From Candidatus Saccharimonadota bacterium (lineage in GTDB: Bacteria; Patescibacteriota; Saccharimonadia; Saccharimonadales; UBA10212), in assembly GCA_019662065.1 (NCBI GenBank), contig JAIFWC010000009.1, positions 1-34,013 of the forward strand: a stretch of 34,013 nucleotides of DNA. The letters run 5' to 3'. Both the position numbers and the translations under genes were made by a program. The notes below the pieces were generated by a model. The model was not told the origin of the DNA and searched no databases. It saw nothing but the letters and a program-made list of their open reading frames with translations. Below are positions 1,317 through 34,013 of the stretch, in pieces (the first letter of the stretch is position 1; each line of letters starts with the position of its first letter).

Positions 1317-1344
1317 TTGACATTAGATAGGAATGCCCGATAAT
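1317..1344 (+). promoter_or_regulatory. Promoter of the beta-helix surface protein
   Basis: TTGACA (1317-1322), 16 bases, GATAAT (1339-1344). The expected transcription start is near 1351, downstream of the ATG at 1346, so translation should begin at the ATG at 1367. It is divergent from the cluster 1 promoter. The same TTGACA-N16-NATAAT layout precedes two paralogues (4014 and 32919). Confidence 0.7.
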
Positions 1345-1366
1345 TATGCTTAAGTTAAACCAAAAA

Positions 1367-3913
1367 ATGGCCCTAACTAATATAAACAACCGAACACCGC
1401 TTATAGGTTCATTGCTGAGGCATAAGAACCAATTTTCTAAGCCGCAACTAGCGGTTTTTGTAATTGTTTTTGGCATAATCGGCTACATAATTTTTAAATC
1501 ATTTGCCATCGGGCCACTAGTGGCTAGCCTGGAGGCCGAACAAATGGTTTTGCCGAGCGGCGCTTCTATATTAAATGATTCAGCCGCTTCTTCTGGGCGC
1601 GACATAATTTTAGCCACTAACGGTACAGCCAATGGCACCGTAAATTTTCCTTCATCAGTTAATTCATTGACAATTGTGGCTAAGGGCGGCCAGTGTTCTG
1701 GCGCGCCGGCTATGACTGTTTCGCTAGATGGCTCTAATGTACTAGCTAGTACCGCAGTGTCTAGCACTTCTTGGACTAGCTATTCGGCCAACTTGGCCAA
1801 TACTATTGGGACTGGCAACCATAACTTAGCCATTAGTTTTAGCAATGATTACACAAAGACCCACGGTAATAAAATCCAGTGTTCGCGTGACTTATATGTA
1901 GATATCACTAATTTTTATGGGCCTAACCCACTGCCAACCCCAGCGCCAACCGTCAGCCTATCGGTCAGCCCGTCAAATGTGACGGCCGGCCAAGCCTCAA
2001 CCCTGACTTGGAACTCGGCCAATGCCGATAGTTGCACGGCTTCTGACGCCTGGTCTGGACCCCAATCGACTCAAGGCTCTACCTCTACCGGTGCCTTAAA
2101 CCAAACCAGCACCTATACCTTAAGTTGTAGCGGTCTTGGCGGCAGTACCACCGCCAAAGCTGTAGTCACTGTCAGCAGTGGCAGTTGTTTGAGCTCAACT
2201 ACCGCCTGGCAAAATAATCCATTATCTAGCCAAAGCGGCACCTTTACACAAGTATTTAGCCTAATACCTAATGCTGCTAATATTGATGCCGACATAGGCT
2301 TCTCGGCCAGTCCGGCCGGAGCCTACACTGATTTAGCAACAATAGTCGAGTTTAACACTAGCGGCAACATTGTGGCCCGTAATGGTGGCGGCTACAGCGC
2401 GGTTACACCACTGGCATATAGCGCTGGTGTATCCTATTCAGTCAGAATGGTGGTTAATGTGCCAGCTCACACTTATAGTGTATATGTAACTCCAACTGGT
2501 GGTTCCGAAGTAACTATCGCCTCTAATTACAGCTTTAGGACAGAACAGTCTGGCGTTAGCCAACTGGGCAACTGGGCAACTGTATCAAGTATTGGTAGCG
2601 AAAAAGTCTGCGGACTGCCGGTGAACACCACACCTCCACTTCCGACTGAGGGCTCCGGCCAAGTTGGCTGCGTCGGGCCAAGCTGCGCTGGTAAGTTACC
2701 GGCGCCAGATACCTCAAAAGGTACTAAGTACTATATATCCAACGGCGGTAGCCTGGGCAACAGCGGTACTTCGGCCAGCAGCCCATGGCCCTTCAGCCAA
2801 GCCAGTGCCTCGCTATATAAGCCGGGCGACAGTGTTAATTTTGCTTGTGGCCAAAGTTTTGGTTTCTTAAATGTTAATGTTTCGGGTACCAGCGGTTTAC
2901 CAGTTATCTTTCAGACCGATGGAACCTGCGGCCAGGCAACTTTTGCTGGCATTGACGTACCCGGCCGCAGCTGGGTGACACTTTATAACATCAAATCGTA
3001 TGTTACTGGCTACTTAAACAGTAGTTATCAGTCCTTTGGAACTACCATTGCGCTTGAAGTCGATGCTCCTAGCAGCCATGTAACTGTTCAGGGTAGCGAC
3101 TTATCAACCAGCAAAGGAGTCGGCAGTGATGCCATTGCAGCAGGTAACACTAGCAATAGTAATATTAGTTATTTAACAATCGATAGCACCAATATTCATG
3201 ATGCTGGCGATACGGCCGTATACCTCTACGGCACCAATAACTTGGTGCAATACAGCAAGTTCTATAATAATGGCGGCAAATGCCCGACTGGCTGCGGCAC
3301 TCACCACATCTACATGAAGGCCGAAAACTCCACCTTTGCCTTCAATGATTTTGGAACAGTTAGCAGTGGTCAGAGCCTTAGCTTGCGCCGCACCAGCTCT
3401 ACTATTTATGGTAATTTGTTCCACGATAATGATTATCCGTTATCATATTTTGCCGAGGTATCAGGCGGTGGTACCACCTTGATTTACAATAACCGCTTCC
3501 AAAACACTAATGGTTATATGATATGGATCGATGGCTCAGACAGCGATTATCTCGGGGCACCAAATATTAATTTAGTTTGGGCTAGTAATACGATTCAGGG
3601 CAACAGCTCCGACTACCTGTTTCCGATTTATAGGAATAAAGGCACTTTTAAGGCTTACAACAACATTGCTATGGGCAGCTGGGTCGGTGCCATCAATGGT
3701 GGTAGCGCTAGTGTGAGCCAATCTAATAATCTTTGGTTCACAGCTAGTGGTATTGGTGCCGGCCCAGACTATTTACTCCAAATCGGTAGCAACGCCATTA
3801 ATACCGGTACAGTTAATGTATCTGGCTTAAACTACACCAATGATTGTAACGGTAAGCCTCTAAGTTACTGTTTAGGCTCACCGGATATTGGCGCCCGTGA
3901 GTCTAATTTGTAA
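1367..3913 (+). CDS. Secreted CBM-Ig-beta-helix protein, putative polysaccharide lyase/hydrolase
   Basis: I take the start at ATG 1367 (848 residues) because the promoter's transcription start lies downstream of the ATG at 1346. Visible modules: N-terminal anchor (about residues 26-46, ending GYIIFKSFA); a CBM36/60-like carbohydrate-binding module (about 54-187) with ASLEAEQ, GAPAMTVSLDG, FSNDYTK and CSRDLYVD, the ND and RDLYVD parts resembling the calcium and ligand site of that family; an Ig-like module (about 193-272); a jelly-roll/LamG-like stretch (about 275-415, with YSVRMVVNVPAHTYSVYV); and a long right-handed beta-helix (about 451-848) with repeated short Asn/Gly/Ser strands. Beta-helices of this type occur in pectate-lyase-like enzymes, but I cannot point to catalytic residues, so adhesin is an alternative. 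The N-terminal half is shared with the proteins at 4098, 10588 and 32974. Confidence 0.8.
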   Translation: MALTNINNRTPLIGSLLRHKNQFSKPQLAVFVIVFGIIGYIIFKSFAIGPLVASLEAEQMVLPSGASILNDSAASSGRDIILATNGTANGTVNFPSSVNSLTIVAKGGQCSGAPAMTVSLDGSNVLASTAVSSTSWTSYSANLANTIGTGNHNLAISFSNDYTKTHGNKIQCSRDLYVDITNFYGPNPLPTPAPTVSLSVSPSNVTAGQASTLTWNSANADSCTASDAWSGPQSTQGSTSTGALNQTSTYTLSCSGLGGSTTAKAVVTVSSGSCLSSTTAWQNNPLSSQSGTFTQVFSLIPNAANIDADIGFSASPAGAYTDLATIVEFNTSGNIVARNGGGYSAVTPLAYSAGVSYSVRMVVNVPAHTYSVYVTPTGGSEVTIASNYSFRTEQSGVSQLGNWATVSSIGSEKVCGLPVNTTPPLPTEGSGQVGCVGPSCAGKLPAPDTSKGTKYYISNGGSLGNSGTSASSPWPFSQASASLYKPGDSVNFACGQSFGFLNVNVSGTSGLPVIFQTDGTCGQATFAGIDVPGRSWVTLYNIKSYVTGYLNSSYQSFGTTIALEVDAPSSHVTVQGSDLSTSKGVGSDAIAAGNTSNSNISYLTIDSTNIHDAGDTAVYLYGTNNLVQYSKFYNNGGKCPTGCGTHHIYMKAENSTFAFNDFGTVSSGQSLSLRRTSSTIYGNLFHDNDYPLSYFAEVSGGGTTLIYNNRFQNTNGYMIWIDGSDSDYLGAPNINLVWASNTIQGNSSDYLFPIYRNKGTFKAYNNIAMGSWVGAINGGSASVSQSNNLWFTASGIGAGPDYLLQIGSNAINTGTVNVSGLNYTNDCNGKPLSYCLGSPDIGARESNL

Positions 3914-4097: not shown

Positions 4098-5327
4098 ATG
4101 CAAGAACAAGAAAAAGCTAAGACCGCTCAAACCAACAATAAATCATCCTTACTCAGACACACTTCTAGATTCTCTCGGGCTCAGCTAGCCATCATAATTT
4201 TAGTATTTGCAGCCGTTGGCGGCTATATTTTGTGGCAGAGCTTTGCGGCCGGCACCCCAGTATCGAGCTTAGAGGCCGAGCAAATGATACTGCCAGCTGG
4301 CGGCAGTGTGATTACCGACGCTAATGCCTCTGGCGGCAAGGCTGTGGACTTATCGACTAATGGTTCGGCCACTGGCTCGGTTAACTTTGCCTCGGCCATT
4401 ACTTCGCTGACTATTACTGCTCGTGGTGGGCAGTGCCAGGGCGCACCCCAGATGGTCATAAGCCTTGATGGAGCCAGCCTGATTAATACTTCGGTTAGCA
4501 CTACTTCTTGGACGGCTTACAATGCTACGGCCAACTATGCGGCCGGCACTCATAGCCTATCGGTTAGCTTTCCTAACGACTTTACTAAATCCAAGGGTAA
4601 AAGATCCTGTTCCAGAGATTTATACTTAGACGTGACTAACTTTTACGGCAATGTCACACCGCCGCCGGCCGCACCAACCGTCAGCTTAAGCGCTTCGCCA
4701 ACTAGTGTCAGCGCCGGCCAAGCCGCCACCCTAACTTGGAATTCATCTAATGCCACCGCTTGCGCCGCCTCTGGCGCCTGGAGCGGCAGCCAGCCGACCA
4801 GCGGTAGCACCAGTACTGGTGCCCTAAACCAAACCTCTAGCTACACCCTAACTTGCACCGGCAGCGGTGGCAGTACTAGTGCTACTACCTCTGTTGCAGT
4901 CACTGCGCCAGTAATTCCGCCGGCCCCAACCATTTACTTCAATCCGCCCAGCCAAAACTTTAGCGTAGGCTCGACCTTTACGATTGATATCAGGGAAAAC
5001 AGCGGCTCGGCCACAGTTAACGCCGTGCAGGCCAACTTTTCCTATCCTAGCGATAAGCTGACATTTGTCAGCGCCGACGCCAGCGCCAGCCCATTTACTA
5101 CTGAGGCCCAAAATACTGGCAGCAATGGTCAAGTTAGCTTAGCCCGCGGTATAATTGGCAGCTTAAGCGGTGACCAGCTAATCTCTAAAATTACCTTCAA
5201 AGTTAATGTTGCTGGAGTGGCTAACCTATCGTTTGTAAATGGCACCGCCTTAATTAGCTCAACCTCTAACCAAAACATCATTGGCTCACTAGCGGCTGAC
5301 GGCATCGGCGTCTACACTCTACAGTAG
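4098..5327 (+). CDS. Anchored CBM-Ig-cohesin protein
   Basis: 409 residues. Modules in order: basic cytosolic tail, membrane anchor/signal (about residues 28-50, ending GGYILWQSFAA), CBM36/60-like module (about 55-187: SSLEAEQ, GAPQMVISLDG, FPNDFTK, CSRDLYLD), Ig-like module (about 190-272: SLSASPTSVSAGQ, GALNQTSSYTLTC), and a cohesin-like module to the end (about 275-409). The cohesin call rests on PTIYFNPPSQ, FTIDIRENSGSATVNAVQAN, FSYPSDKLTFVS and GDQLISKITFKV, which follow the usual cohesin order of beta strands; the same phrases recur in 5401-6972 and 7097-8716. Expected role: bind glycan through the CBM and offer a cohesin as docking site at the surface. The promoter at 4014 makes it a unit of its own; it converges on the dockerin gene. 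Confidence 0.8.
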   Translation: MQEQEKAKTAQTNNKSSLLRHTSRFSRAQLAIIILVFAAVGGYILWQSFAAGTPVSSLEAEQMILPAGGSVITDANASGGKAVDLSTNGSATGSVNFASAITSLTITARGGQCQGAPQMVISLDGASLINTSVSTTSWTAYNATANYAAGTHSLSVSFPNDFTKSKGKRSCSRDLYLDVTNFYGNVTPPPAAPTVSLSASPTSVSAGQAATLTWNSSNATACAASGAWSGSQPTSGSTSTGALNQTSSYTLTCTGSGGSTSATTSVAVTAPVIPPAPTIYFNPPSQNFSVGSTFTIDIRENSGSATVNAVQANFSYPSDKLTFVSADASASPFTTEAQNTGSNGQVSLARGIIGSLSGDQLISKITFKVNVAGVANLSFVNGTALISSTSNQNIIGSLAADGIGVYTLQ

Positions 5328-5400
5328 ACAGACAGTCCAAATAAGCACAAAAGCTTTAACTATTTTACCGTAACCCTGATAGCCTAGAACCCTTGTGTTT

Positions 5401-6972
5401 CTACTTGCCGTAGTTGGAAAGTAGAATCGATAAGTCAAAGATATTGACGATACCGTCTTTGTTGATGTCGGCTACGGCGTTAGTGGTGTTCCAGTTGCTG
5501 AGCAAGATCGATAAGTCAGTGATATTGACCGCGTTGTCGCCATTTAAATCACCGGGCTTAGCGGTTACTGTCGCCGCCGTCAGAGTTGCAGCCGCTGAGG
5601 AGTTGTTAGCCGCATCGGTCGCTACCAAGCTGTAATTGTAGCTGGTGGTGCTAGTTAAGCTACTATCGGTATAGGTTAGAGTGCTGCCGGTTAAGGTCGC
5701 GATCAGTGTGCCATTCCGGCTGAGTTTATAGTTAGCTACACCAACGTTGTCAGTTGAGGCATTCCAAGCCAAAGTAATGCTAGTTAGAGTGTTGGCAGTC
5801 ATGAGCAGGCTAGTTGGAGCAGTTGGCGGGCTATTATCAACAACTACACTAACTGCTGCACTAGTAGTTATATTAGCGGGGCTGGCGCTGTCGTAGCCTT
5901 TAACGGTTAAGTTATGTGAGGTATTGGTAGCTGTGGTGGTGTTCCAGCTAAAGCTGTATGGCGAAGTTGTATCGGTAGAGTTCAAAACTGCATCAACATA
6001 TAGCTCAACTTTACTAATACCGGTGCCGCCAACATTATCGGTGGCATTAGCACTGACCGTCGTAGTACCGCTAAGCGTTGCTCCACCGGCTGGCGCTGTA
6101 ATCGAAGTGGTTGGTGGGGTTTGGTCGGCCAAAGTTATGGTCGTCAGGGCTGTAGTACCAACATTATTAAACGAGTCATAAGCCTTGGCTTGGACGGTAT
6201 GCGAGCCCAAACTGACGCCCGTAGTACTCCAAGCATAAGTATAGGGACTGGTGGTCAGGGTGGTTTTTAGAGCGCCATCTATATATAGCTCAACCTTTGT
6301 TACTGAGCTGGCGGCATCGCTAGCGGTAGTGGTGATGGTAGTGGTGCCGGGAGCTGAGATTACAGCATTGTTGGCTGGAGCTGTTACCGAAACAGTCGGC
6401 GGCGCAGTATCAGTTGTGTAGCTGCCGCCGGCCGTAGCTGCCAGCGAACCTAATATATCTTGATTGGTGGTCGAGCTAACTAAAGCTGTGCCAGTAGTGA
6501 ACGGCACGCTGGCTGTGCCGCCAGTAGCTGTAGTTGTAAAGTTAATAGTTGCTACCAATTGGTCGCCGGTAACTGCTGAACAGCCACCGCAAGTACCAAG
6601 TGCAATATTTATAGAACCCGAACCGCCGGTAGTTTGGGCGGTAGTAGCGAAGGCAGTACCAGTGGTACTGATACTGACAAAAGTTAATAAGCTAGTGTTA
6701 TAGCTCAAATTAGCCTGAACAGCATTAACAGAAGTAGTGCCGCTATTTTCTCGGACCTGGACGCTAAAGCTGGTACTGGCGCCCAAAGTTTGGCTAGCCG
6801 GCGTCAAATAAATAGTCGGCGGCGGCGGTACCGCAAAAGTGCGCCACAAAATGTAGCCGCCGATTACTGCAAATATTAGGCCGAATAAGGCTAAGTCACG
6901 TAAACGGAGTGGACTTTTGGCTGTTAGTTTTGAGCTTGTATTTTTATTTGGCCGTAGCCTATTAAGAAGCAT
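5401..6972 (-). CDS. Anchored cohesin - Big - Big - FN3 - dockerin protein
   Basis: 523 residues. N-terminal anchor (about residues 26-48, ending GGYILWRTFAV); cohesin-like module (about 52-190: SFSVQVRENSGTTSVNAVQAN, then LSYNTSLLTFVS, with a CGGC pair in a loop); two bacterial Ig repeats (about 193-285 and 286-380: TKVELYIDGALKTT and SKVELYVDAVLNST); a fibronectin type III module (about 381-469); and a C-terminal type-I-like dockerin (about 470-523). The dockerin has two complete calcium loops, DLNGDNAVNITD and DINKDGIVNIFD (D1, N3, D5, D12), each followed by LSILLSN. Cohesin and dockerin on one chain would allow chain formation or docking onto the neighbouring cohesin proteins. It is transcribed divergently from the two-cohesin anchor gene. 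Module calls are by motif; binding specificity is unknown. Confidence 0.85.
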   Translation of the reverse strand: MLLNRLRPNKNTSSKLTAKSPLRLRDLALFGLIFAVIGGYILWRTFAVPPPPTIYLTPASQTLGASTSFSVQVRENSGTTSVNAVQANLSYNTSLLTFVSISTTGTAFATTAQTTGGSGSINIALGTCGGCSAVTGDQLVATINFTTTATGGTASVPFTTGTALVSSTTNQDILGSLAATAGGSYTTDTAPPTVSVTAPANNAVISAPGTTTITTTASDAASSVTKVELYIDGALKTTLTTSPYTYAWSTTGVSLGSHTVQAKAYDSFNNVGTTALTTITLADQTPPTTSITAPAGGATLSGTTTVSANATDNVGGTGISKVELYVDAVLNSTDTTSPYSFSWNTTTATNTSHNLTVKGYDSASPANITTSAAVSVVVDNSPPTAPTSLLMTANTLTSITLAWNASTDNVGVANYKLSRNGTLIATLTGSTLTYTDSSLTSTTSYNYSLVATDAANNSSAAATLTAATVTAKPGDLNGDNAVNITDLSILLSNWNTTNAVADINKDGIVNIFDLSILLSNYGK

Positions 6973-6992
6973 AAGCTTAATCCTTGAACCTA

Positions 6993-7021
6993 AGTATTAG
7001 TCGAGTTTTTAAAAATGTCAA
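6993..7021 (-). promoter_or_regulatory. Promoter of the cohesin-dockerin gene
   Basis: On the minus strand TTGACA (7016-7021), a 17-base spacer, AATACT (6993-6998), giving a leader of about 14 bases before the ATG at 6972. It is divergent from the promoter at 7051. Confidence 0.6.
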
Positions 7022-7040
7022 ACAGTTTAAATAAGATCAT

Positions 7041-7050
7041 CCCTGCAGGG
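7041..7050. promoter_or_regulatory. Palindrome between divergent promoters
   Basis: CCCTGCAGGG is a perfect 10-bp palindrome placed between the two divergent -35 elements (7016-7021 and 7051-7056) of the cohesin-dockerin and two-cohesin genes. A regulator bound here could affect both. No regulator is encoded nearby, so an operator role is only suggested. Confidence 0.3.
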
Positions 7051-7079
7051 TTGACTTAAGCGCTATCGCAAAGCATTAT
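7051..7079 (+). promoter_or_regulatory. Promoter of the two-cohesin anchor gene
   Basis: TTGACT (7051-7056), 17 bases, CATTAT (7074-7079), about 17 bases before the ATG at 7097. The leader is A/T-rich and has no Shine-Dalgarno site. Confidence 0.6.
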
Positions 7080-7096
7080 TTATATAAGTATATAAA

Positions 7097-8716
7097 ATGA
7101 AATATTTAACAAAAACTAACTTGTTAGCCAGCGTCGGCCTGATTTTAGTAGTACCAATAATAGTTGCCGTTCGCTTAGTGGGTGCTGCCGGTACGGCTAC
7201 GCTATATCTCTCACCAGCTAGTAACACCTATGCCCAGGGCGCGCGACTAAATATTGATATACACGAAGATAGCGGTAGTGATACTGTTAATGCCGTCCAA
7301 GCCAATCTGACTTACTCAAATAGCTTAACCTTTGACGGCATCGATACTTCGCCGGACTTCACCACGGTTGCTGAATCGACTGGTGGGGGAGGTAGCGTCA
7401 AAATTGGCCGCGGGACTTGTGGTCCTTGTGGACCGGTGACAGGCGATAAGGTGGTAGCCACTGTGCATTTTATTGCTAATGCTGCTGGTACAGCCAACGT
7501 TAACTTTGCCGCCGGCACAGCGGTAGTCCGCTCTAATGATAACCAATCCGAGGCTCTAACTCTCAATAATGGTACCTACACTATATCTTCGCCGGCTACC
7601 ATGACTTTATCACCGGCTAGCCAAAGCTTTATCAAAGGTACTAGCTTTAATGTGGCGGTCTATGAAAATAGTGGTAGCGACCAGGTGAATGCCGTTCAAG
7701 CCAACCTTAGCTATCCGGCTAACTTGCTAACATTTGTCAGCATTACCCCTAATACTTCGGCTTGGCCAGTGGAGGCCGAAAACACTGGCAGTGGCGGCTT
7801 AGTTAGAATCGGCCGAGGCACCTTTAGCCCTATCACGGGAAGTCAATTAATAGCTACAGTGAAATTTACTGCGGCTAGCGCCGGTACGGCCCAAGTGGCC
7901 TTTGCTAGCGGCAGTGGCATTATCCGCTCCTCTGACAATACCGCTGAGCCATCAATTAACACCGGTGGTAGCTATACTGTAACCACTACAACCTCCAATC
8001 CGCCAGCTGGCGGCTCTGGCTCCGTCACCAGTTCCACTTCGAAACCTAAATCTAGCTCGACCTCACCGCCTAAAACTACAACTGCCAGTCCAGCCACTCA
8101 AAGCTCACCGGTTACTACTCCGCTTGATACTGATGGACCAGTTATTTCTAATGTCAAAGTCATTAATTTATCGCTCAACACAGCTACCATCAATTGGCAA
8201 ACTTCTGAGCCTGCGACTTCCGAAGTCAGTTATGGATTGAGTACAAAACTTATTCTAAGTAAAGTTGATAAAAACCTAACTACTAAGCACTCTCTAGCTC
8301 TTGATTCTAAGGAGTTAATTGGTCATAAAACTTACCATTTTGTGGTCAAGAGTATCGATGCTGCCGGCAACGAAGCGGTTAGTAAGGATATGACATTCAA
8401 GACCAGCAACAGTACATTTAATGGCTCTAAGATTGTTCTGATATCACTCGGAGTGATTATGATTGGTGCGCTGGCATTAGCGGCAATTACCCGGTTTGGC
8501 GGCCGTGGTGGCGGATCGTCGTCAACTCATGGTACTTATACGGAACCCAAGCCAGTAATTGTTGGCGGCGGCGGTGGACAAGCGCAACCAATAGTGCCGC
8601 CCCAACCTAAAGCTCCTCCCAAAAAACCAGCCACTATTATCGCCGGCGAGGATCCTCAAACGCCCGGTGAAGTCATTGTACCCAAAAACTCCCCAGCTGA
8701 TAGTCCGGCCAAATAG
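7097..8716 (+). CDS. Membrane-anchored two-cohesin scaffold protein
   Basis: 539 residues. N-terminal signal segment (about residues 8-32, LLASVGLILVVPIIVAV); cohesin-like module 1 (about 34-160: IDIHEDSGSDTVNAVQAN, VTGDKVVATVHF, with a CGPC pair); cohesin-like module 2 (about 161-295: YENSGSDQVNAVQAN, LSYPANLLTFVS, GSQLIATVKF); a Ser/Thr/Pro linker (about 296-345); a fibronectin type III module (about 346-440: TATINWQTSEPATSEVSYG); a C-terminal membrane span (about 441-465: IVLISLGVIMIGALALA) followed by Arg; and a Pro/Gly-rich cytosolic tail. The layout is that of a cell-surface anchoring scaffoldin: two dockerin-binding modules held away from the membrane by a stalk. The likely partner is the dockerin protein transcribed divergently. 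Its anchor differs from the GGYxL-xSFA type of the CBM proteins. Confidence 0.82.
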   Translation: MKYLTKTNLLASVGLILVVPIIVAVRLVGAAGTATLYLSPASNTYAQGARLNIDIHEDSGSDTVNAVQANLTYSNSLTFDGIDTSPDFTTVAESTGGGGSVKIGRGTCGPCGPVTGDKVVATVHFIANAAGTANVNFAAGTAVVRSNDNQSEALTLNNGTYTISSPATMTLSPASQSFIKGTSFNVAVYENSGSDQVNAVQANLSYPANLLTFVSITPNTSAWPVEAENTGSGGLVRIGRGTFSPITGSQLIATVKFTAASAGTAQVAFASGSGIIRSSDNTAEPSINTGGSYTVTTTTSNPPAGGSGSVTSSTSKPKSSSTSPPKTTTASPATQSSPVTTPLDTDGPVISNVKVINLSLNTATINWQTSEPATSEVSYGLSTKLILSKVDKNLTTKHSLALDSKELIGHKTYHFVVKSIDAAGNEAVSKDMTFKTSNSTFNGSKIVLISLGVIMIGALALAAITRFGGRGGGSSSTHGTYTEPKPVIVGGGGGQAQPIVPPQPKAPPKKPATIIAGEDPQTPGEVIVPKNSPADSPAK

Positions 8717-9149: not shown

Positions 9150-9170
9150 TTTAAAAGCGCCGAGGGCGCT
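9148..9170 (-). terminator. Intrinsic terminator of tiny-ORF cluster 2
   Basis: On the minus strand AGCGCC-CTC-GGCGCT is followed by TTTAAATT. It has the same stem as the cluster 1 terminator, with a shorter T run. Confidence 0.45.
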
Positions 9171-9219
9171 GCGGATAAACCGCGCTTTGCCCGCCTAATT
9201 GGCGGGCGCCCTTGGCGCT
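9156..9219. other. Conserved stem-loop element, copy B
   Basis: AGCGCCGAGGGCGC (9156-9169) pairs with GCGCCCTTGGCGCT (9206-9219) over 14 positions with one G-T pair. Inside are GCGG-ATAAA-CCGC (9171-9183) and the 7-bp hairpin GCCCGCC-TAATT-GGCGGGC (9189-9207). Compared with copy A the bases differ in the outer arms but the pairing is kept. The branched shape suggests a folded RNA at the 3' end of the cluster. Confidence 0.5.
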
Positions 9220-9222
9220 ATG

Positions 9223-9293
9223 CCCGGTAGTGAGCTTTCGCGTGGCTATGCTAGCGTCCGCGTACGCGGATATCGCGAAAGTTTACTACCGGG
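9223..9293. repeat. Palindromic insert with 20-bp arms
   Basis: The left arm (9223-9242, CCCGGTAGTGAGCTTTCGCG) pairs with the right arm (9274-9293) in all 20 positions, two of them G-T. The loop holds a second perfect hairpin, TCCGCG-TA-CGCGGA (9257-9270). Copy A lacks this block. TGCCCGG occurs on both sides of it (9221-9227 and 9299-9305), like a short target duplication. It resembles a small miniature mobile element or a cruciform-forming site; no transposase is near. Confidence 0.6.
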
Positions 9294-9338
9294 TGTGGTG
9301 CCCGGACCGGACTGCCCGGGGCTTTTTCTTGAGGAGAT

Positions 9339-9428
9339 TCACCATCGTCCCGGATCGACCTCATCCGGCCAAAAGATGAAGAGCAGGACGGCGACGATGA
9401 TGATGATTAACCATCCCCACCATGGCAT
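9339..9428 (-). CDS. 29-residue Trp-rich membrane peptide (copy B)
   Basis: Begins MPWWGWLI, followed by a run of Ile and Val, then LLFIFWPDEVDPGRW. It is the same peptide as at 437-526 apart from the order of two residues. A full GAAAGGAG site precedes the ATG by 6-7 bases. It is the last gene of cluster 2, and the structured element follows. A single membrane span with an acidic, Trp-containing end is predicted. Longer frames through this region (67 and 78 residues) ignore this ribosome-binding site and are not preferred. Confidence 0.72.
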   Translation of the reverse strand: MPWWGWLIIIIVAVLLFIFWPDEVDPGRW

Positions 9429-9445
9429 CTTGTGCTCCTTTCGGA

Positions 9446-9616
9446 TCAGGCGAGTTTTCCGCGCTTCCAGCGCCACCACGCCAAGAAGTACTGACGTCGC
9501 GTCTCGCCGAATTGCGGCTGCCAAATCGGACGAGCTCCGCAAACACGTTCAAGCCCTTCATCGTGATATGCCTGGTCTGGAATGATGCCAGACCCAACTC
9601 TTTGGACTGTTCTCAC
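9446..9616 (-). CDS. 56-residue Trp/Arg-rich small protein
   Basis: GTG start at 9616, 4 bases after AAAGGAG. It begins (V)RTVQRVGSGIIPDQAYH and ends FLAWWRWKRGKLA. There is no clear membrane span, but the C-terminus is aromatic and cationic, as in membrane-active peptides. Gap to the next gene is 17 bases, filled by another AAAGGAG linker. The N-terminal RTVQR resembles RTVRR of the 52-residue ORF at the head of this cluster, a weak hint of common origin. No family is recognised. Confidence 0.6.
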   Translation of the reverse strand: MRTVQRVGSGIIPDQAYHDEGLERVCGARPIWQPQFGETRRQYFLAWWRWKRGKLA

Positions 9617-9631
9617 GGTGCTCCTTTCGGG

Positions 9632-9730
9632 TCAGCGCTTTTTGCGGCGTTTTTTCTTCTGTTTCTTGAAGCCCTGTTGGACGATTGAGTCCTTCAGTGC
9701 TTTCTTGGACTCCCGCGGCGTTTTAGCCAT
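9632..9730 (-). CDS. 32-residue highly basic peptide
   Basis: It reads MAKTPRESKKALKDSIVQQG and then a Lys/Arg-only tail (FKKQKKKRRKKR), with a net charge of well over +10. AGAGGA precedes the ATG by 5 bases. A nucleic-acid- or ribosome-binding role is possible from charge alone, with no further support. It is the third gene of cluster 2, in the middle of the variable part. Confidence 0.55.
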   Translation of the reverse strand: MAKTPRESKKALKDSIVQQGFKKQKKKRRKKR

Positions 9731-9745
9731 TTTGATCCTCTCGGT

Positions 9746-9958
9746 TCAGCGTTGAAAGGCGGTGAACCGCCCGATTGAGACAATTAGGAACACCATCGTT
9801 CCTACACACAAGGAGATGACGATTGTCTGCGGCGCCGAGACTCCGAAAGCCAGAAACGTGGCCCAGAACATCAACCACGCCCCATTGAAGCAGAACTCTG
9901 CGACCTGGTCATCAAGCCGGTCGCTGAAGGGCAGAACCAACTTTTTCAAGAGATTCAT
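9746..9958 (-). CDS. 70-residue two-pass membrane protein
   Basis: It begins MNLLKKLVLPFSDRLDDQ. Two hydrophobic segments follow, about residues 25-40 (GAWLMFWATFLAFGVSA) and 43-62 (QTIVISLCVGTMVFLIVSIG). AAAAAGGAG lies 4 bases before the ATG. It is second in its cluster, like the two-pass protein at 818-1048, but no sequence match is apparent. The size and topology would fit a holin-like or small regulatory membrane protein; neither is demonstrated. Confidence 0.65.
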   Translation of the reverse strand: MNLLKKLVLPFSDRLDDQVAEFCFNGAWLMFWATFLAFGVSAPQTIVISLCVGTMVFLIVSIGRFTAFQR

Positions 9959-9973
9959 TTTGCTCCTTTTTGG

Positions 9974-10132
9974 TCAACGGTGTCTAAAGAGCCGGCCGAG
10001 ATTCCTGATAAACAAGTGGACACTGGAGCGCTTCGTGGCCTCTGGATCCTCAGTCCACTCATCAAGGACTTTACCACTCTCGTCCACCAGTTGTTTGTAC
10101 TCGACGCCGTGCCGTCTGACAGTTCTGATCAT
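9974..10132 (-). CDS. 52-residue charged protein, first gene of cluster 2
   Basis: It begins MIRTVRRHGVEYKQLVDESG, then KVLDEWTEDPEATKRSS, and ends RNLGRLFRHR. It is soluble-looking and rich in both acidic and basic residues. GAGGAG lies 5 bases before the ATG, and the leader from the cluster promoter is about 60 bases. No family is recognised. The gap of 15 bases to the next gene again contains an AAAAAGGAG linker. Confidence 0.6.
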   Translation of the reverse strand: MIRTVRRHGVEYKQLVDESGKVLDEWTEDPEATKRSSVHLFIRNLGRLFRHR

Positions 10133-10199
10133 GTTTTCTCCTCACAGGAAAGAGCTAAACCTCAGCTCCTTTGACGGCTAACCGAAATTTCTAAACCAT

Positions 10200-10228
10200 A
10201 TTTTACAATGTTCATAACTCCTTAGCAA
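10200..10228 (-). promoter_or_regulatory. Promoter of tiny-ORF cluster 2
   Basis: On the minus strand TTGCTA (10223-10228), 17 bases, TAAAAT (10200-10205), then TATGGTTTAGAAATTTCGG and a conserved TTTAGCTCTTTC in the leader. The same arrangement precedes cluster 1. It is divergent from the thioredoxin-like gene. Confidence 0.7.
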
Positions 10229-10252
10229 CAGAGGAAAGTCTCAGGATTTTGA

Positions 10253-10258
10253 TATCAT
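10253..10258 (+). promoter_or_regulatory. -10 element, leaderless start of gene 10266
   Basis: TATCAT followed by 7 bases and the ATG at 10266. The -35 is poor. Confidence 0.4.
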
Positions 10259-10265
10259 AAGCGGT

Positions 10266-15858: not shown

Positions 15859-18800
15859 ATGAGGCAATTTGCCTCGCGCACGCGCGCGGTCAATATATAT
15901 CTTTTGACCCCCTTATTGGGGGTTGCTGTGTTTGTAGCAGTTTTGGTTTCGGCTCTGGCTCCAGTCGCCCACGCGGCCACAAGTAGCTCAAATTTAAATT
16001 TCCAGGCCCGGCTGTTAAGTAACACCGGCTCGGTAGTACCCGACGGCAACTACAACATCGACTTCAAAATTTACACAGCTGATTCGACGACCGGCAGCGT
16101 TGGCACTTGTTCGGGCGCCTGTGTGTGGGAAGAGACCCGCAAAAATTCCAACAGCCAGGGCGTCCAGGTTATCAACGGCTACTTTTCGGTCAACCTCGGC
16201 AGCGTGACGGCCTTTGGCGGCGGCATCAACTGGGATCAGCAGCTGTGGCTGACCATGAACATTGGCGGCACTAGCACTGGCGCCAGCCCGACATGGGACG
16301 GCGAAATGCAAAATAGCGGCCATAGTATTGCACTAACGGCACTGCCATACAGTTTTGTGGCCGGCCAGCTGGCGCTAACTAGTGGCGCTAACCGTGGCAC
16401 CCTAAGCTTTGGCAGCGTGACCAACAATCCTGGCATTACCTTGCCTAACGCCAGTGGCACGGTTTGCCTGCAAAGCAGCGCCTCGTGTGGCTTTATCCAA
16501 GGTTCCGGCACGGCTTTTGTGCAGAACGGCAACAGCGGGCTAGGGGCAACGGCTGTATTGGGTACGACTGACTCCCAGAGCTTGAACTTCATAACCAACA
16601 ACCATACCATCCAAAGCATTTCTACGACTGGCGCAGTGACGTTTGAGAACTTCAGCGATTCCAGCACCGCCTTCCAAGTTCAGAATGCCTCAGCCTCAAG
16701 CTACTTCAATATTAATACCTCTGATGGCTACGTGATCGACAACGGCACCGATAGCCTAGGTAATGCTATCCAGAACCCTAGTTTTGAATCGAGCGGCACC
16801 ACGGACGCTACCGGCTGGTATACGCCCAGCGCCTCTCAGGTGCTTACCAATAGCTCGGCTAATGCCCGTAGTGGTAATTATGAGCTACAAGTCAGTGGTA
16901 ACTCCAGCACCCACGCTGTGACTACAAAATGGTTTGCCGTGCATCCTAGCGACACGATTTACGCCGAGGCCTATGTCAAAAACTCGGCGGGGGCTAATGG
17001 CGACGGGGGAATTTACTTGGAATTTGCCGATAAGGACAAGGGTAATGCCACCTATAGTAATGCCGACACGGGGTTGCCGGGCACTAGCTACGCCCTAAAA
17101 TCCATTACTACCACCGTGCCAGCGAGTAAATATTTTGTTCGAATTGCCGCCAGTGTTAAGGCAACTTCTAGTACCGGCACTTTCTACTTTGATGACTTTT
17201 ACCTGAAGCTAGTCAACCAACAATCACCTCTGTTAATTACTAATAATAGTGCCACGGCCTTCCAAGTCCAAAACTCCTCGGGCCAGACGGTGCTGGGAGT
17301 GGATGCCAGCTCTTCTCCCACGGCTGGCGCCAAATTGTTAAGCTTGCAGAATAATAGCGCCGAAAAATTATCAGTCGATAAAGATGGTAATGTGACGATA
17401 ACGGGCAACCAAAGCATTGGCGCTGGCAAGCAATATCAAATCAACGGTACTCAAATTAGCTCGGCTAATTTGAGCAATGATTCGGATATCGCCAAACTGG
17501 CTGGTACTGGGCCGCAGATATTTACGGGCAATAACAAATTTACTGGCACAGTACTCAGCCAGACCACCTCGGCCACGGCCTTCCAGGTCCAAAACGCTAC
17601 TAATACTATTTTTGCGGTTGACGCTTCGGGTAATAAGGTCATTTTAGGTACGGCTTCTGCCTTGACCGGTAAAATCCAGTTTCAAGGCAGTGGTGGAGCC
17701 GGAACATTAACTTTGGTAGGGCCAACCACGCCCGATACCGGCAATTACACCCTGACGATTCCAGCCATTACGGCTAATGCCAATATCTGTACCGATAATT
17801 CGATTTGCTCGGGCTATGCCAGCTCATCAAGCCTCACTACTGGCTTAGCTGGTAAGCTCAATAAAAATGCCGTGGATACTTCGGCGGCGGCCGTGACGGC
17901 GGTGCAGGGCAACTTGTACGCCTTTACTAACAACAGCAGTGGTATTGCTTCGGGCGTGCTTAAGTTGGATAACGGCAATAACACCGATAACGCCCTTTAT
18001 ATAACTGGCACAACCGACTATGCTAGCGGCAAAGCCTACATTGTGGTCAACAACACCAACGGTACCCCAACCGGTAGTTTGATTGACTTGCAGTCTAATG
18101 CCACTAGCGAATTTAGCGTTGATGCCAGCGGCAATGTGACGGCCGCCGGCAATATCTCGATTGCCTCCGGCAAGGTATACCAAATTAACGGTGTCCAAAT
18201 CTCTACTTCGGCGCTGTCCGATGGGAATGTGGTCGCCAAAACTAATGCTACGCAGACATTTAGCGGCGATAATACCTTTTCCTCGGCCTCTAACTCGTTT
18301 ACCGGTAGTGGCTCGGGGTTAACCAGTCTTAATGCCTCTAATGTTAGCTCCGGAACCTTGAACGACGGCCGGCTGAGTTCGAATGTAGCGCTACTGAACC
18401 GCACCGCCCAATCGTTCACTGGTGACAATACCTTTGCGCCAACGTCGAACGGCGCTGGCACAACTATCAAGCAGACTTCTGGTACAGCGACTTCTGGCAG
18501 CGTGCTGGACGTGCAAACGGCCGATGGCTTGAGCCACTTCCTTCAGATAACTAATGCCGCGGCTAACGAGGGCAATGTGACTTTGCAAAGTGTCGGCGCG
18601 ACCCGTGACCTCACGCTTGGTTCGGGTTCGGGCACACTTAAGATTGCGGCAGCCACTGGCACTATCCAGCACAGCAATACCAGCCTGACGATTGACGTTA
18701 ATAGTGGTTCTAATTCAACTTTGACCATAACCAATGCCGGCGCCGGTATAGCTTCCTTAGACGTAGAAGGCAGTATAAACATTGGTGGCAGCCAGGTGTA

Positions 18801-21156
18801 TAAAGTTAATGGTACCAGTGGCGTAAGTAACACTTGTTCGAGTAATACATTCTCGCAGAACCAGGTAGTTAATGGGGGAATAACCACCAGTGTGAGTTGT
18901 GCCAGCGCCGTAACATCGATTAGCAGTGCCGGCGGTTCGATTGCCAATGGCGCCAGTATTTCGGGCAATGCCTTAACCCTGGGCTATGCTGACACCAGCA
19001 ACCCTGGTCTGGTCAGCAATACTACCCAAAGCTTCAATGGCAATAAGACCTTTACAGGTACCGTGACAGTTCAAAATAACGGCTCCGGAGCCTTTCAGGT
19101 TCAGAACACTAGTGCCCGCACTTTACTGGTTGTAGATGAAACTGCCAATGTCGTGACGATCGGCAATAGCACAGATGGTGCCCAAGTTACACTTGGGGCT
19201 ACTGGTAATGCCAGCGGGACTATCCGCAAAAGTATGATTGTAACTGGCACCGTAACGGCCAACGACCTGGTGGAAATTGATATTTCAAACGCTGGCCAAG
19301 TCCAGCAAGCTGCATCTAGCTCTACCAAAGTATTTGGCGTAGCTTCGTCAGCCGTGGGTAGCGGCTCGGCCCAAGATGTTGTGATCAGTGGTGTTTATCA
19401 GGTAAACGCCAACTCCAGTGGCGGCACTATTGCAATTGGTGATACCTTGGTAAGCTCATCCACGGCCGGGCAGGCGACTAAATCCGGCACTACCACGGCT
19501 TCTGGTTCAGTAGTTGGCCTAGCCCTTTCAACGCTATCGAGTGGTAAAGTTTGGGTGTATATCAACCTGGGGCTGGGCGGCTCAGATAACCTACAAACGG
19601 TTTATAACAAATCGACCGGCAGCACCACACCAGAAATCAAAGTTGATTCTACCAGGGGTGGGCTCGACATCCAGGACGCTGACAGTACCATCTCAGCCAG
19701 CTTGCTGACAGTTAGAGCGAGTAATGGCAGTGGCCTAGGCACAGCTATTTTGGATGTCCAGAGCACCGGCACTATCTCACTGGGTACTGCGTCACAAACA
19801 ACCACTATAACCGTTGGCCAGTCGACAGCCAGTAACACTATAAATGTTGGTGCGGCCACTGTAGCGACCGGTAATACCCAGAATATCCATATTGGCGATT
19901 CAGCTACAGGGACCGGTAAAGATGTAATTACTATTGGTAACACCAACGGGGCATCGTCTCTAACGCTTTCGGCTGGAACGGCTGGCATTTCTCTAGCAGC
20001 TGACACGACCTTGTCGGCTGGTAAGCTGCTAGTGATTGGCACTAATGGTAGTGACCTAACCTGTACCAGTGGTGGCATATACTATAACACCGGCTCAAAC
20101 CGGTTTAAGGGCTGCGAAAACGGCACTTGGGTTTTCTTGGATAATTATGCCGACGTGCAACACTTCACTAGCTCTGGGACATGGAGTAAACCGACTAATG
20201 CTACAGCTATCCAAGTAATTGTAATTGGCGCCGGTGGTGGCGGTGGCGGTGGCGGCGCCCGCAACGGTGGCCAGGAACGAAACGGTGGTGGCGGTGGCGG
20301 CGCCGGCGCTTATGCTTCGCAAGTCTTTTCGGCGTCAGATATACCGTCGGGCAGTGCAACCGTAGGTGCGGCTGGCTCATCAGGCGCCGGCGCGGCCAGC
20401 TCGGCCACTGCCGGCAGCAACGGCGGTGCCGGCGGCACCAGTTGTTTCTCAAGTGCCGCCAGTTGCGGTGGCACTATGTATACCCAAGCTTTTGGCGGTG
20501 GTGGCGGTGGCGGTGGAAACCAGGCTGGTACGGCCGGTGGCGGTGGTGGCGGCGGTGGTGGTACTGCGGCGGCTGGTTCGACCGGTTCGAATACCAGCAA
20601 TACTGCCGGGACCGGCGGCAACCCAGCCGGTGGCGCTGTTAATACAAATGTAGCCGGTGGTTCTGGCGCCGGCGGTGGTTCTGCCAACTCGGCTGCGGGA
20701 ATAGCCGGCAACGCCGGTGGTGCGGCTGAATATGGTGGCGGTGGCGGTGGCGGTGCAGCCGGCGGCAACGCTACCTCTGGTAACGGTGGTAGCTCTGTGC
20801 ATGGAGCTGGCGGTGGCGGAGCTGGCGGCAGTACCAACAGTGGTAACTCTACGGGCACTCCAGGCACTGGCGGTTCGAGCCAAACTAATACCAGTGGTGG
20901 CGGCGGTGCCGCCGGCACTTCCGGTTCAGCCTGTGGTAGTGGCGGCACCGGTAGTAATGGTAGTGCTGGTAGTTCAATCAAGGCCGGTACCGGTGGCGGT
21001 GGTGGAGGTGCTAACGGTGGCGGCGGGGCGGCTGGTTGTGCCGGTGGTAATGGCGGCCAAGCCGGCGGTGGCGGTGGTGGTGGCGGTTCAGGTTCGACCA
21101 GTGCCGGGGCTGGCGGCACAGGTGGCGCCGGCGAGGTCTGGATTATCAGCTGGTAG
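15859..21156 (+). CDS. Giant secreted fibre-like protein with Gly-rich C-terminus
   Basis: 1765 residues. A signal peptide (residues 1-39, cleavage after AHA) precedes a domain opening NLNFQARLLSNTGSVVPDG, a type common at the N-terminus of large CPR surface proteins. The middle holds tail-fibre-like repeats: AFQVQN appears four times (near 17250 and 19090, for example), commonly followed by a VDASGN-type turn, and KxYQINGxQIS units recur (IGAGKQYQINGTQIS, IASGKVYQINGVQIS). A jelly-roll-like insert (PSFESSGTTDATGWY) lies near residue 300. From about residue 1434 (HFTSSGTWSKPTNATAIQVI) to the end the chain is a Gly-rich domain with long Gly runs, closing GEVWIISW, as in phage tail-fibre tips. 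An attachment fibre is the likely role. It has its own promoter. The Gly-rich stretch produces long antisense Pro-rich frames that are not genes. Confidence 0.8.
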   Translation: MRQFASRTRAVNIYLLTPLLGVAVFVAVLVSALAPVAHAATSSSNLNFQARLLSNTGSVVPDGNYNIDFKIYTADSTTGSVGTCSGACVWEETRKNSNSQGVQVINGYFSVNLGSVTAFGGGINWDQQLWLTMNIGGTSTGASPTWDGEMQNSGHSIALTALPYSFVAGQLALTSGANRGTLSFGSVTNNPGITLPNASGTVCLQSSASCGFIQGSGTAFVQNGNSGLGATAVLGTTDSQSLNFITNNHTIQSISTTGAVTFENFSDSSTAFQVQNASASSYFNINTSDGYVIDNGTDSLGNAIQNPSFESSGTTDATGWYTPSASQVLTNSSANARSGNYELQVSGNSSTHAVTTKWFAVHPSDTIYAEAYVKNSAGANGDGGIYLEFADKDKGNATYSNADTGLPGTSYALKSITTTVPASKYFVRIAASVKATSSTGTFYFDDFYLKLVNQQSPLLITNNSATAFQVQNSSGQTVLGVDASSSPTAGAKLLSLQNNSAEKLSVDKDGNVTITGNQSIGAGKQYQINGTQISSANLSNDSDIAKLAGTGPQIFTGNNKFTGTVLSQTTSATAFQVQNATNTIFAVDASGNKVILGTASALTGKIQFQGSGGAGTLTLVGPTTPDTGNYTLTIPAITANANICTDNSICSGYASSSSLTTGLAGKLNKNAVDTSAAAVTAVQGNLYAFTNNSSGIASGVLKLDNGNNTDNALYITGTTDYASGKAYIVVNNTNGTPTGSLIDLQSNATSEFSVDASGNVTAAGNISIASGKVYQINGVQISTSALSDGNVVAKTNATQTFSGDNTFSSASNSFTGSGSGLTSLNASNVSSGTLNDGRLSSNVALLNRTAQSFTGDNTFAPTSNGAGTTIKQTSGTATSGSVLDVQTADGLSHFLQITNAAANEGNVTLQSVGATRDLTLGSGSGTLKIAAATGTIQHSNTSLTIDVNSGSNSTLTITNAGAGIASLDVEGSINIGGSQVYKVNGTSGVSNTCSSNTFSQNQVVNGGITTSVSCASAVTSISSAGGSIANGASISGNALTLGYADTSNPGLVSNTTQSFNGNKTFTGTVTVQNNGSGAFQVQNTSARTLLVVDETANVVTIGNSTDGAQVTLGATGNASGTIRKSMIVTGTVTANDLVEIDISNAGQVQQAASSSTKVFGVASSAVGSGSAQDVVISGVYQVNANSSGGTIAIGDTLVSSSTAGQATKSGTTTASGSVVGLALSTLSSGKVWVYINLGLGGSDNLQTVYNKSTGSTTPEIKVDSTRGGLDIQDADSTISASLLTVRASNGSGLGTAILDVQSTGTISLGTASQTTTITVGQSTASNTINVGAATVATGNTQNIHIGDSATGTGKDVITIGNTNGASSLTLSAGTAGISLAADTTLSAGKLLVIGTNGSDLTCTSGGIYYNTGSNRFKGCENGTWVFLDNYADVQHFTSSGTWSKPTNATAIQVIVIGAGGGGGGGGARNGGQERNGGGGGGAGAYASQVFSASDIPSGSATVGAAGSSGAGAASSATAGSNGGAGGTSCFSSAASCGGTMYTQAFGGGGGGGGNQAGTAGGGGGGGGGTAAAGSTGSNTSNTAGTGGNPAGGAVNTNVAGGSGAGGGSANSAAGIAGNAGGAAEYGGGGGGGAAGGNATSGNGGSSVHGAGGGGAGGSTNSGNSTGTPGTGGSSQTNTSGGGGAAGTSGSACGSGGTGSNGSAGSSIKAGTGGGGGGANGGGGAAGCAGGNGGQAGGGGGGGGSGSTSAGAGGTGGAGEVWIISW
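20200..21135 (+). repeat. Low-complexity Gly-codon repeat tract
   Basis: Imperfect runs of GGTGGC/GGCGGT-type codons within the giant gene encode the Gly-rich end. The units are too irregular for a tandem-repeat array, but slippage or recombination is likely to change its length between strains. Confidence 0.7.
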
Positions 21157-32973: not shown

Positions 32974-34013
32974 ATGGCAAAAAACCCAAAACCTAAGAAA
33001 GAGAAAAAAATGGATCCAAGTAACAGCTCTAAATCCGTGGCGGCTTGGTCGCCTTTTAAACGGACTAGTTTTTCACGCAATCAACTCATAGCTTTTGCAC
33101 TAGTGTTTGCCGTGATTGGCGGCTATATTTTATATCGCACCTTTGCCTCTGCTCCCTTAGTAGCTACACTCGAAGCCGAACAAATGATCTTACCGGTCAG
33201 CGGCTCAGTAGTTACTGATACCAGCGCCAGCAGTGGCAAAGCCGTATTTATATCTACAAACGGCACTGCTACCGGCAGCCTTAACCTGCCATCCAACGTC
33301 ACTTCGCTGACAGTTGTCGCCAAGGGCGTGCAGTGCTCTGGGGCACCAACTATGACTATGGCTATCGATGGCTCTAATACTATGACCAATATGGCGGTAT
33401 CCTCCACAGCTTGGGCCTCATATTCAGCCTCGGTTAACCTTAATGCCGGAACCCATAGCGTAGCCTTGAGCTTTACTAATGACTACAATAAAACTCGCGG
33501 CAACAGCCGTAATAGCTGCACGCGCGACCTTTATATAGATGTCTCTAACTTCTTTGGTCCTAGCGCTGTTACCCCAGCCCCCACTGTGTCTCTTAGCGCT
33601 TCACCTACCAATGTTAGTGCCGGCGGCTCCTCGACCCTCACGTGGGCTTCAACCGACGCTAATACTTGTATGGCTAGTGGTGCCTGGTCTGGCTCCCAGC
33701 CAACCACTGGTTCAACTAGCACTGGAGCCATTAACCAAAATTCCGTCTATACCTTAACTTGCACAGGTCCTGGGGGTTCTGGCAGTGCTTCGGCTACCGT
33801 CACAGTCAATGGCACTTTAGCTATCATACCGGCTAGCTTAGCGACGGCGACTGTTGGCCCGGCCTACACTCAATCCTTTAGTACAACCGGTGGTTCTAAC
33901 CCGCCATATAGCCTTAGGGTCACCCAAGGCACGCTGCCTAACGGCTTGTCTTTTACTGGCTCGACCCTAGCTGGTACACCGACCACCGCTGGAACCTATG
34001 CCTTCACTTTCCC
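32974..34013 (+). CDS. Secreted CBM-Ig-putative Ig protein (partial, cut by window end)
   Basis: At least 346 residues; the frame is open to the window end. It begins MAKNPKPKKEKKMDPS; Met13 (33010) is an alternative start. Anchor (about residues 37-58, ending GGYILYRTFAS), CBM36/60-like module (about 61-190: ATLEAEQ, GAPTMTMAIDG, FTNDYNK, CTRDLYIDVSNFFG), Ig-like module (about 195-275, SLSASPTNVSAGG), and then a He_PIG-type putative Ig module (PASLATATVGPAYTQSFSTT, GTLPNGLSF, STLAGTPTTAGTYAF) that is cut by the window edge. It is the fourth member of the family at 1367, 4098 and 10588, placed about 20 kb away from the others. It has the strongest promoter in the window. Confidence 0.8.
   Translation, partial: MAKNPKPKKEKKMDPSNSSKSVAAWSPFKRTSFSRNQLIAFALVFAVIGGYILYRTFASAPLVATLEAEQMILPVSGSVVTDTSASSGKAVFISTNGTATGSLNLPSNVTSLTVVAKGVQCSGAPTMTMAIDGSNTMTNMAVSSTAWASYSASVNLNAGTHSVALSFTNDYNKTRGNSRNSCTRDLYIDVSNFFGPSAVTPAPTVSLSASPTNVSAGGSSTLTWASTDANTCMASGAWSGSQPTTGSTSTGAINQNSVYTLTCTGPGGSGSASATVTVNGTLAIIPASLATATVGPAYTQSFSTTGGSNPPYSLRVTQGTLPNGLSFTGSTLAGTPTTAGTYAFTF

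Follow-up and report, generated by a model that had tools for sequence, protein, structure and literature searches.

Gene organization of the locus

The window analysed here is the whole of a 34,013-bp contig (C10) from a 679-kb genome of the order Saccharimonadales (71 contigs, 87% complete), and the subject of this work is a group of three neighbouring genes at positions 4098-8716 that we call A (+ strand), B (- strand) and C (+ strand). Together they encode four cohesins and one dockerin (Table 1), and all five modules were found where the initial annotation, made from the DNA letters, had placed them. The bacterium is a tiny cell and probably host-dependent. Its attribution to the candidate phyla radiation (CPR) agrees with its order, in which G151, G014 and G205 are letter-identical, over the stretches compared, to CP025011.1, QWHN01000001.1 and JANWHZ010000030.1, respectively.

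The architecture of the three proteins is also as it had been read initially. C is a membrane anchor that bears two cohesins on a Ser/Thr/Pro stalk (the linker is 68% Ser/Thr/Pro, and the fn3 match of the protein stays below the cut-off), A joins a cohesin to a carbohydrate-binding module (CBM) of family CBM60, and B has a cohesin at one end and a dockerin at the other. The AlphaFold model of B has a mean predicted local distance difference test score (pLDDT) of 86.6, and its architecture is also present at other loci of our set (L086, L087, L090, L112, L113 and L132). In a tree the window cohesins are close paralogues, with a single outside sequence inside their clade. In A, B and the CBM60 neighbours the export segment closes with (S/T)-F-A, and the adaptor homologues have other small-residue sites at this place. 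The region between B and C contains TTGACA-17-AATACT on the - strand and TTGACT-17-CATTAT on the + strand, which are consensus matches only and about as numerous as in shuffles.

Identity of the modules

The cohesins had been recognised by a shared motif starting with NSG, and this motif is indeed present four times, although the NSG start is not universal, as the first copy of C has DSG. Its VNAVQAN(L/F)(S/T)Y part appeared in none of 20,000 shuffles. In the genome search with PF00963 (cut-off 24.1 bits) the window copies scored 30.5, 27.8, 24.3 and 20.7 bits, so that three of the four exceeded the cut-off, and PF00404 (cut-off 22.9 bits) matched the dockerin well above its own; these are the Pfam matches that had been proposed as a check of the assignment. 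Single-protein hmmscan listed a cohesin in C only. Because the Pfam cohesin model scores the window copies weakly (20.7-30.5 bits), an independent lineage profile was built from 59 cohesins that belong to the order but not to this genome, and 1,000 shuffled proteins served as background for the lineage profiles. The four window cohesins reached 112-126 bits with this profile vs 6.6 for the best shuffled protein, and the dockerin of B reached 79.8 bits with the corresponding dockerin profile vs 8.3.

A fold unlike the cohesin jelly roll had been named beforehand as what would speak against the assignment. The AlphaFold2 single-module model of the second cohesin of C (Table 1) matches cohesin structures: in a Foldseek search of the PDB, ranks 1-29 were all cohesins and 41 of the 42 best matches were cohesin entries, the exception being a fibrillar-adhesin CLIPPER domain at rank 30. 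Template modelling (TM) scores were about 0.6-0.8, and the best matches (6kgf, 4ums, 2xdh and 1g1k) had about 0.78. When the whole of protein B was searched, Ig/fn3 chains dominated, which gives little information on its cohesin. As for the dockerin, the two intact calcium loops that had been predicted are both there, DLNGDNAVNITD at residue 475 and DINKDGIVNIFD at residue 502 of B, with D1, N3, D5, N9 and D12 in place and helices at 484-492 and 511-519. Furthermore, a profile made from B together with its homologues hits the solved cellulosomal dockerins 2y3n_B, 2mte_A and 1ohz_B.

Table 1. Position and main characteristics of the features discussed (window coordinates unless contig C42 is given)
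Feature	Position	Strand	Characteristics
Protein A, 409 aa	4098..5327	+	Export segment ending SFA before AG; CBM60 (48.1 bits); Ig-like region; C-terminal cohesin
Cohesin of A	4926..5291	+	1.1e-41 with alignment A4; PF00963 24.3 bits; order-level profile 123.4 bits
Protein B, 523 aa	5401..6972	-	N-terminal cohesin, two Big_7, weak fn3, C-terminal dockerin (Pfam)
Cohesin of B	6439..6819	-	2.2e-42 with alignment A4; PF00963 27.8 bits
Dockerin of B	5404..5568	-	PF00404 37.2 bits; own profile 79.8 bits; both calcium loops intact
B-C divergent intergenic region, 124 bp	6973..7096		Promoter-like sites on both strands
Protein C, 539 aa	7097..8716	+	Signal sequence, two cohesins, Ser/Thr/Pro stalk, fn3-like, transmembrane helix, 72-residue tail; PF00963 34.6 bits, two stretches
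First cohesin of C	7187..7564	+	1.4e-39 with alignment A4
Second cohesin of C	7592..7966	+	8.1e-42 with alignment A4; fold model pLDDT 96.7
Transmembrane helix of C, residues 446-467	8432..8497	+	IVLISLGVIMIGALALAAITRF
CE4 + dockerin open reading frame (C42)	1-1314	same as C42 cohesin	Cut by contig start
Cohesin open reading frame, fifth cohesin (C42)	1327-1989	+	12 bp downstream of the CE4-dockerin frame
E1, CBM60-linked, 855 aa	1346..3913	+	CBM60 36.9 bits; no dockerin
E2, CBM60-linked, 564 aa	10588..12282	+	CBM60 37.9 bits; no dockerin
Fourth CBM60 + Ig protein	32974-34013		Runs off contig end

The second dockerin and the cellulosome question

With the lineage profiles, the whole genome contains five cohesins and two true dockerins. 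The second dockerin lies on contig C42, at the C-terminal end of a CE4-type polysaccharide deacetylase, and the fifth cohesin (100 bits with the lineage profile) is encoded immediately downstream of it. The open reading frame (ORF) of this cohesin has no transmembrane segment; one followed by a basic tail is found directly downstream in another frame (L010:1327-2200, + strand), and this break may be genuine or have arisen from an error in the assembly. The dockerins of B and C42 share a DLSILLS(N/H)(W/Y) stretch in each half. Matches to PF00404 on C46 and C52 were discarded as further dockerins: they score 14.9-20 bits with the lineage profile, are absent from the search with the dockerin alignment A3 and represent distant EF-hand pairs. 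Further genes of C42 (L010:2787-7531) are another CE4 gene (with CBM4_9), a GH10 gene and one for a class D-like sortase that stays below the NCBIfam cut-offs; a dockerin is absent from all of them.

A recent survey takes as a cellulosome a multi-cohesin protein together with a dockerin-bearing glycoside hydrolase (PMC11557425). Here there is a multi-cohesin protein (C) and, in addition, a CBM on a cohesin-bearing protein (A). No dockerin-bearing glycoside hydrolase was found in the 87%-complete genome, GH10, E1 and E2 all being without dockerin. The initial description of the locus as a cellulosome-like assembly therefore stands for its cohesins, its dockerin and its anchor, adaptor and CBM architecture, and is not supported for a cellulosome in the strict sense, as the sole dockerin-bearing cargo visible is a CE4-type deacetylase on another contig. 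A true minimal cellulosome, in which the scaffold would load several glycoside hydrolases to obtain sugar by breaking down polysaccharide of plants or microbes, is in our opinion unlikely. The multi-cohesin anchor, the CBM-bearing cohesin protein, the CBM60 neighbours and the GH10 gene of C42 would fit it, and so would the Patescibacteria outside the order in which tandem glycosidase-dockerin genes accompany a two-cohesin protein (L225 and L226). It is also the published reading of a relative, Ca. Teamsevenus rhizospherense (CP025011.1), for which a "simple, two-subunit cellulosome" was mentioned in passing (Starr et al. 2018; PMC6031116). However, the two true dockerins of our genome leave every glycoside hydrolase found without one, and the dockerin protein of T. 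rhizospherense is a CE4 deacetylase with CBM4_9 and not a cellulase.

Cohesin and dockerin pairing in the order

In a sample of 295 genomes from 143 genera of the order, PF00963 detected a cohesin in 57 and PF00404 a dockerin in 84, with both present in 49. That 49 of the 57 cohesin genomes also have a dockerin corresponds to an odds ratio of 35.5 (p 1e-24) if genomes are treated as independent, which they are not. Adjacency is a stronger argument than this p-value, because a coincidence within 6 kb is rare in a genome of ~1 Mb: 44 of the 49 genomes with both modules have a pair at most 6 kb apart, and in 22 the dockerin gene immediately precedes the cohesin gene, both being on one strand. The lineage profile finds a cohesin in 80 of the 295 genomes and in 60 of the 143 genera, and on inspection an adjoining cohesin was seen in genomes that Pfam had left as dockerin only (G077, G091, G130, G147, G167, G184 and G267). 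The expectation that a cohesin and dockerin set would be notable in a small CPR genome thus has to be corrected, since cohesins occur in 57-80 of the 295 genomes and in 112 of a phylum sample of 380 (dockerin in 149, both in 76), and a pair was already reported for one relative in 2018 (PMC6031116).

What recurs is a secreted dockerin protein, with this module at its C-terminus, beside a protein with one or more N-terminal cohesins and a linker, usually followed by a C-terminal transmembrane segment and tail. Two elaborations were seen: a three-gene relay of cargo, cohesin-to-dockerin adaptor and anchor (L086 and L087), and proteins with three or four cohesins plus a dockerin near a two-cohesin anchor (L109, L110 and L111). 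In the window B and C show the pair layout, being 124 bp apart and divergent, and so do the dockerin and cohesin ORFs of C42, which lie on one strand but have the transmembrane segment in another frame. The locus is, as far as its genes can be read, a layered version of this pair, with C as anchor, B as adaptor and A as CBM60-cohesin protein. The dockerin proteins encoded beside cohesins are varied: CE4 deacetylases (L077, L083, L092, L096, L122 and our own C42), an S8 subtilase (L082), an N-acetylmuramoyl-L-alanine amidase that also has repeats binding peptidoglycan (L079), proteins of the Asp-box/Vps10 type (L078 and L084), a CBM6/CBM35 protein (L091) and many Ig/CARDB chains. No dockerin-bearing cellulase was seen in the genomes of the order that were looked at.

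A mirror-tree comparison of 44 adjacent pairs gave r 0.50, which none of 2,000 permutations reached, the signal being confounded with species history, so that shared genome ancestry contributes to it. In both trees CE4 pairs lie close to each other, and the nearest neighbours of the C42 pair include such pairs. Taken together, the order-wide co-occurrence and adjacency, the intact calcium loops and the correlated trees of adjacent pairs make it very unlikely that the modules are vestigial, or plain Ig-like or EF-hand adhesin repeats without cognate binding, as might be supposed from the disturbed anchor frame of C42, from the absence of cohesin in the congeneric genomes searched and from the general knowledge that the partner of cohesin-like modules outside cellulosomes is often not known.

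Proposed working of the scaffold

In our view the three genes are likely to form a small layered cohesin-dockerin scaffold for surface display. C would be fixed in the cell membrane and would present its two cohesins outward on the Ser/Thr/Pro stalk. B would be an exported adaptor whose dockerin enters a cohesin of C or A and whose own cohesin takes a further dockerin protein, and A, with its cohesin on a CBM60, would tie dockerin proteins to polysaccharide. The CE4-type deacetylase of C42 is likely a cargo of this scaffold, held through the cohesin of B. As the ends of their export segments read as signal-peptidase sites, A and B would be released and would need docking. Since a dedicated gene pair extends across the order, the general job is most likely to dock secreted adhesins and enzymes that modify polymers, in a calcium-dependent way, on the surface of a host-dependent cell, where the system may have a role in host contact.

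The sequence is silent on which pairs are cognate, because both dockerins share their recognition stretch and the window cohesins are close paralogues. As the specificities are not visibly separate (the cohesin of B is close to those of A and C), B might also associate with itself head to tail, the dockerin of one molecule in the cohesin of the next, giving a fibre rooted in C. The presence of both modules on one chain would permit this, and in G065 the adaptor and cargo dockerins are nearly identical. However, it is general knowledge that adaptor scaffoldins keep their two specificities apart, and we consider such a fibre quite unlikely.

Several points weigh against the surface-display scaffold. 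The sole dockerin-bearing enzyme visible is cut by a contig end, the cohesin ORF beside it has no in-frame transmembrane segment, and the genome is incomplete and fragmented, as stated above. The N-terminal segments of A and B may also stay uncleaved and act as anchors, and this would make the adaptor role less convincing; to this is added the part of species history in the mirror-tree signal. Furthermore, no cohesin was found in the two congeneric genomes searched, and 6 of 16 genomes in the family have one; the cohesin set is patchy and may therefore be recently acquired or expanded.

Other features of the window

The CBM-linked enzyme candidates that had been annotated next to the cohesin genes are present, with CBM60 as their module, and the four CBM60 genes detected genome-wide all lie in the window; E1, E2 and the protein at the contig end bear no dockerin. 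These neighbours have no visible route onto the scaffold, because they carry no dockerin. Neither E2 nor the C-terminal part of E1 had a match in PDB sequences or NCBIfam, and searches with Pfam, NCBIfam and PDB sequences placed neither E1 nor E2 in a catalytic family. The intergenic stretches 340-1345 and 9170-10265 share repeats of 148 nt at 98%, 31 nt at 100% and 51 nt at 86% identity, and short similar stretches exist in other genomes of the family; on the minus strand they read as series of very short ORFs, one of which encodes a membrane-like peptide of 29 aa that begins with MPWWGWLIIIVIAVLLFIFWP. An exported protein of 1765 aa, Gly/Ala-rich in its C-terminal part, is encoded at 15859-21156 and matched neither a Pfam nor an NCBIfam family above the cut-off. 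Searches for tRNA and Rfam RNA in the window gave no hit.

Dockerin proteins beyond the order and their possible receptors

Outside the order, G360 and G386 (L225:3870-17359, + strand, and L226:958-10499, - strand) contain tandem genes for secreted proteins of ~620-710 aa with near-identical C-terminal dockerins, some of them apiosidase-like or GH5-like with CBM6, and in G360 these genes adjoin that of a 939-aa protein with two cohesins and a dockerin. If a true multi-enzyme complex is sought, these tandem genes are more promising candidates than those of the window.

In family f36, mostly in genus g61, dockerin proteins lie beside an Ig-like module, here called X, that is joined to a transmembrane anchor or to a dockerin (L116:5979-7849 -, L118:4549-6437 +, L120:4816-5418 -, L205:4613-5236 + and L208:5926-6903 +). 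The dockerin proteins include one with a papain-like domain (L116) and one with an S8 subtilase and leucine-rich repeats (L120). Profile comparison gave no support to X being a diverged cohesin (probability 8.9%). As X stands in both adaptor and anchor positions, it is a candidate for an unrecognised dockerin receptor. It is possible, and we propose it tentatively, that in Saccharibacteria and part of the wider Patescibacteria cohesin and dockerin are a general means of assembling adhesins directed at the host and enzymes active on the wall at the surface, with the genes of cargo and receptor side by side, and that one genus has exchanged the cohesin for an Ig-like receptor module that cannot be recognised as a cohesin.

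How Patescibacteria build the surface that contacts their host is a central question, and the gene-level pairs in many genomes of one order offer concrete, expressible candidate pairs of receptor and cargo. They also suggest that a "cellulosome" annotation in this group should be read as the display of deacetylases, proteases and binding proteins on the cell surface. This wider pairing rule is a more interesting result than the cellulosome reading.

Comparison with known systems

According to the open-licence papers in which earlier reports were searched (other reports may exist), what is new here is the scale together with the rule of pairing and the architecture of the adaptor, and the cohesin-dockerin set itself is not unique. 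The closest case is T. rhizospherense, of the same order, in which a dockerin protein lies beside a membrane-anchored cohesin protein (L092) and the only cohesin found in the genome adjoins the deacetylase mentioned above; there is one cohesin there, whereas the window has four, and in addition an adaptor and a protein that joins CBM60 to a cohesin. Clostridial cellulosomes that have both adaptor and anchoring scaffoldins (C. thermocellum, A. cellulolyticus and R. flavefaciens) resemble the window system in the cohesin fold, the dockerin loops, the layering of anchor, adaptor and cargo and the CBM on a cohesin protein. In contrast to them, the window system has no dockerin-bearing glycoside hydrolase found, few cohesins, a transmembrane anchor in place of surface-layer homology (SLH) or sortase attachment, and Ig-rich chains.

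Cohesins and dockerins serving outside cellulose degradation are also found in C. perfringens hydrolases and in anaerobic methanotrophic (ANME) archaea, the latter having non-cellulosomal proteins with several cohesins and a dockerin, and dockerins commonly on solute-binding proteins (PMC9012536). Unlike these, the Saccharimonadales have a conserved gene pair of cargo and anchor, with deacetylases, a protease, an amidase and Ig/CBM proteins. Finally, the dockerin protein SEML1_0315 is essential in cultured Southlakia epibionticum, for which host-glycan targeting was speculated (Wang et al. 2023, Cell; PMC10633639). Compared by its description only, it is likewise a saccharibacterial envelope protein with a dockerin, but a cohesin partner is not mentioned in that paper. 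The pairing described in this work is a candidate explanation for this unexplained essential protein of a genetically tractable Saccharibacterium, and the Ig-like receptor, if true, would give a dockerin protein of this kind its partner.

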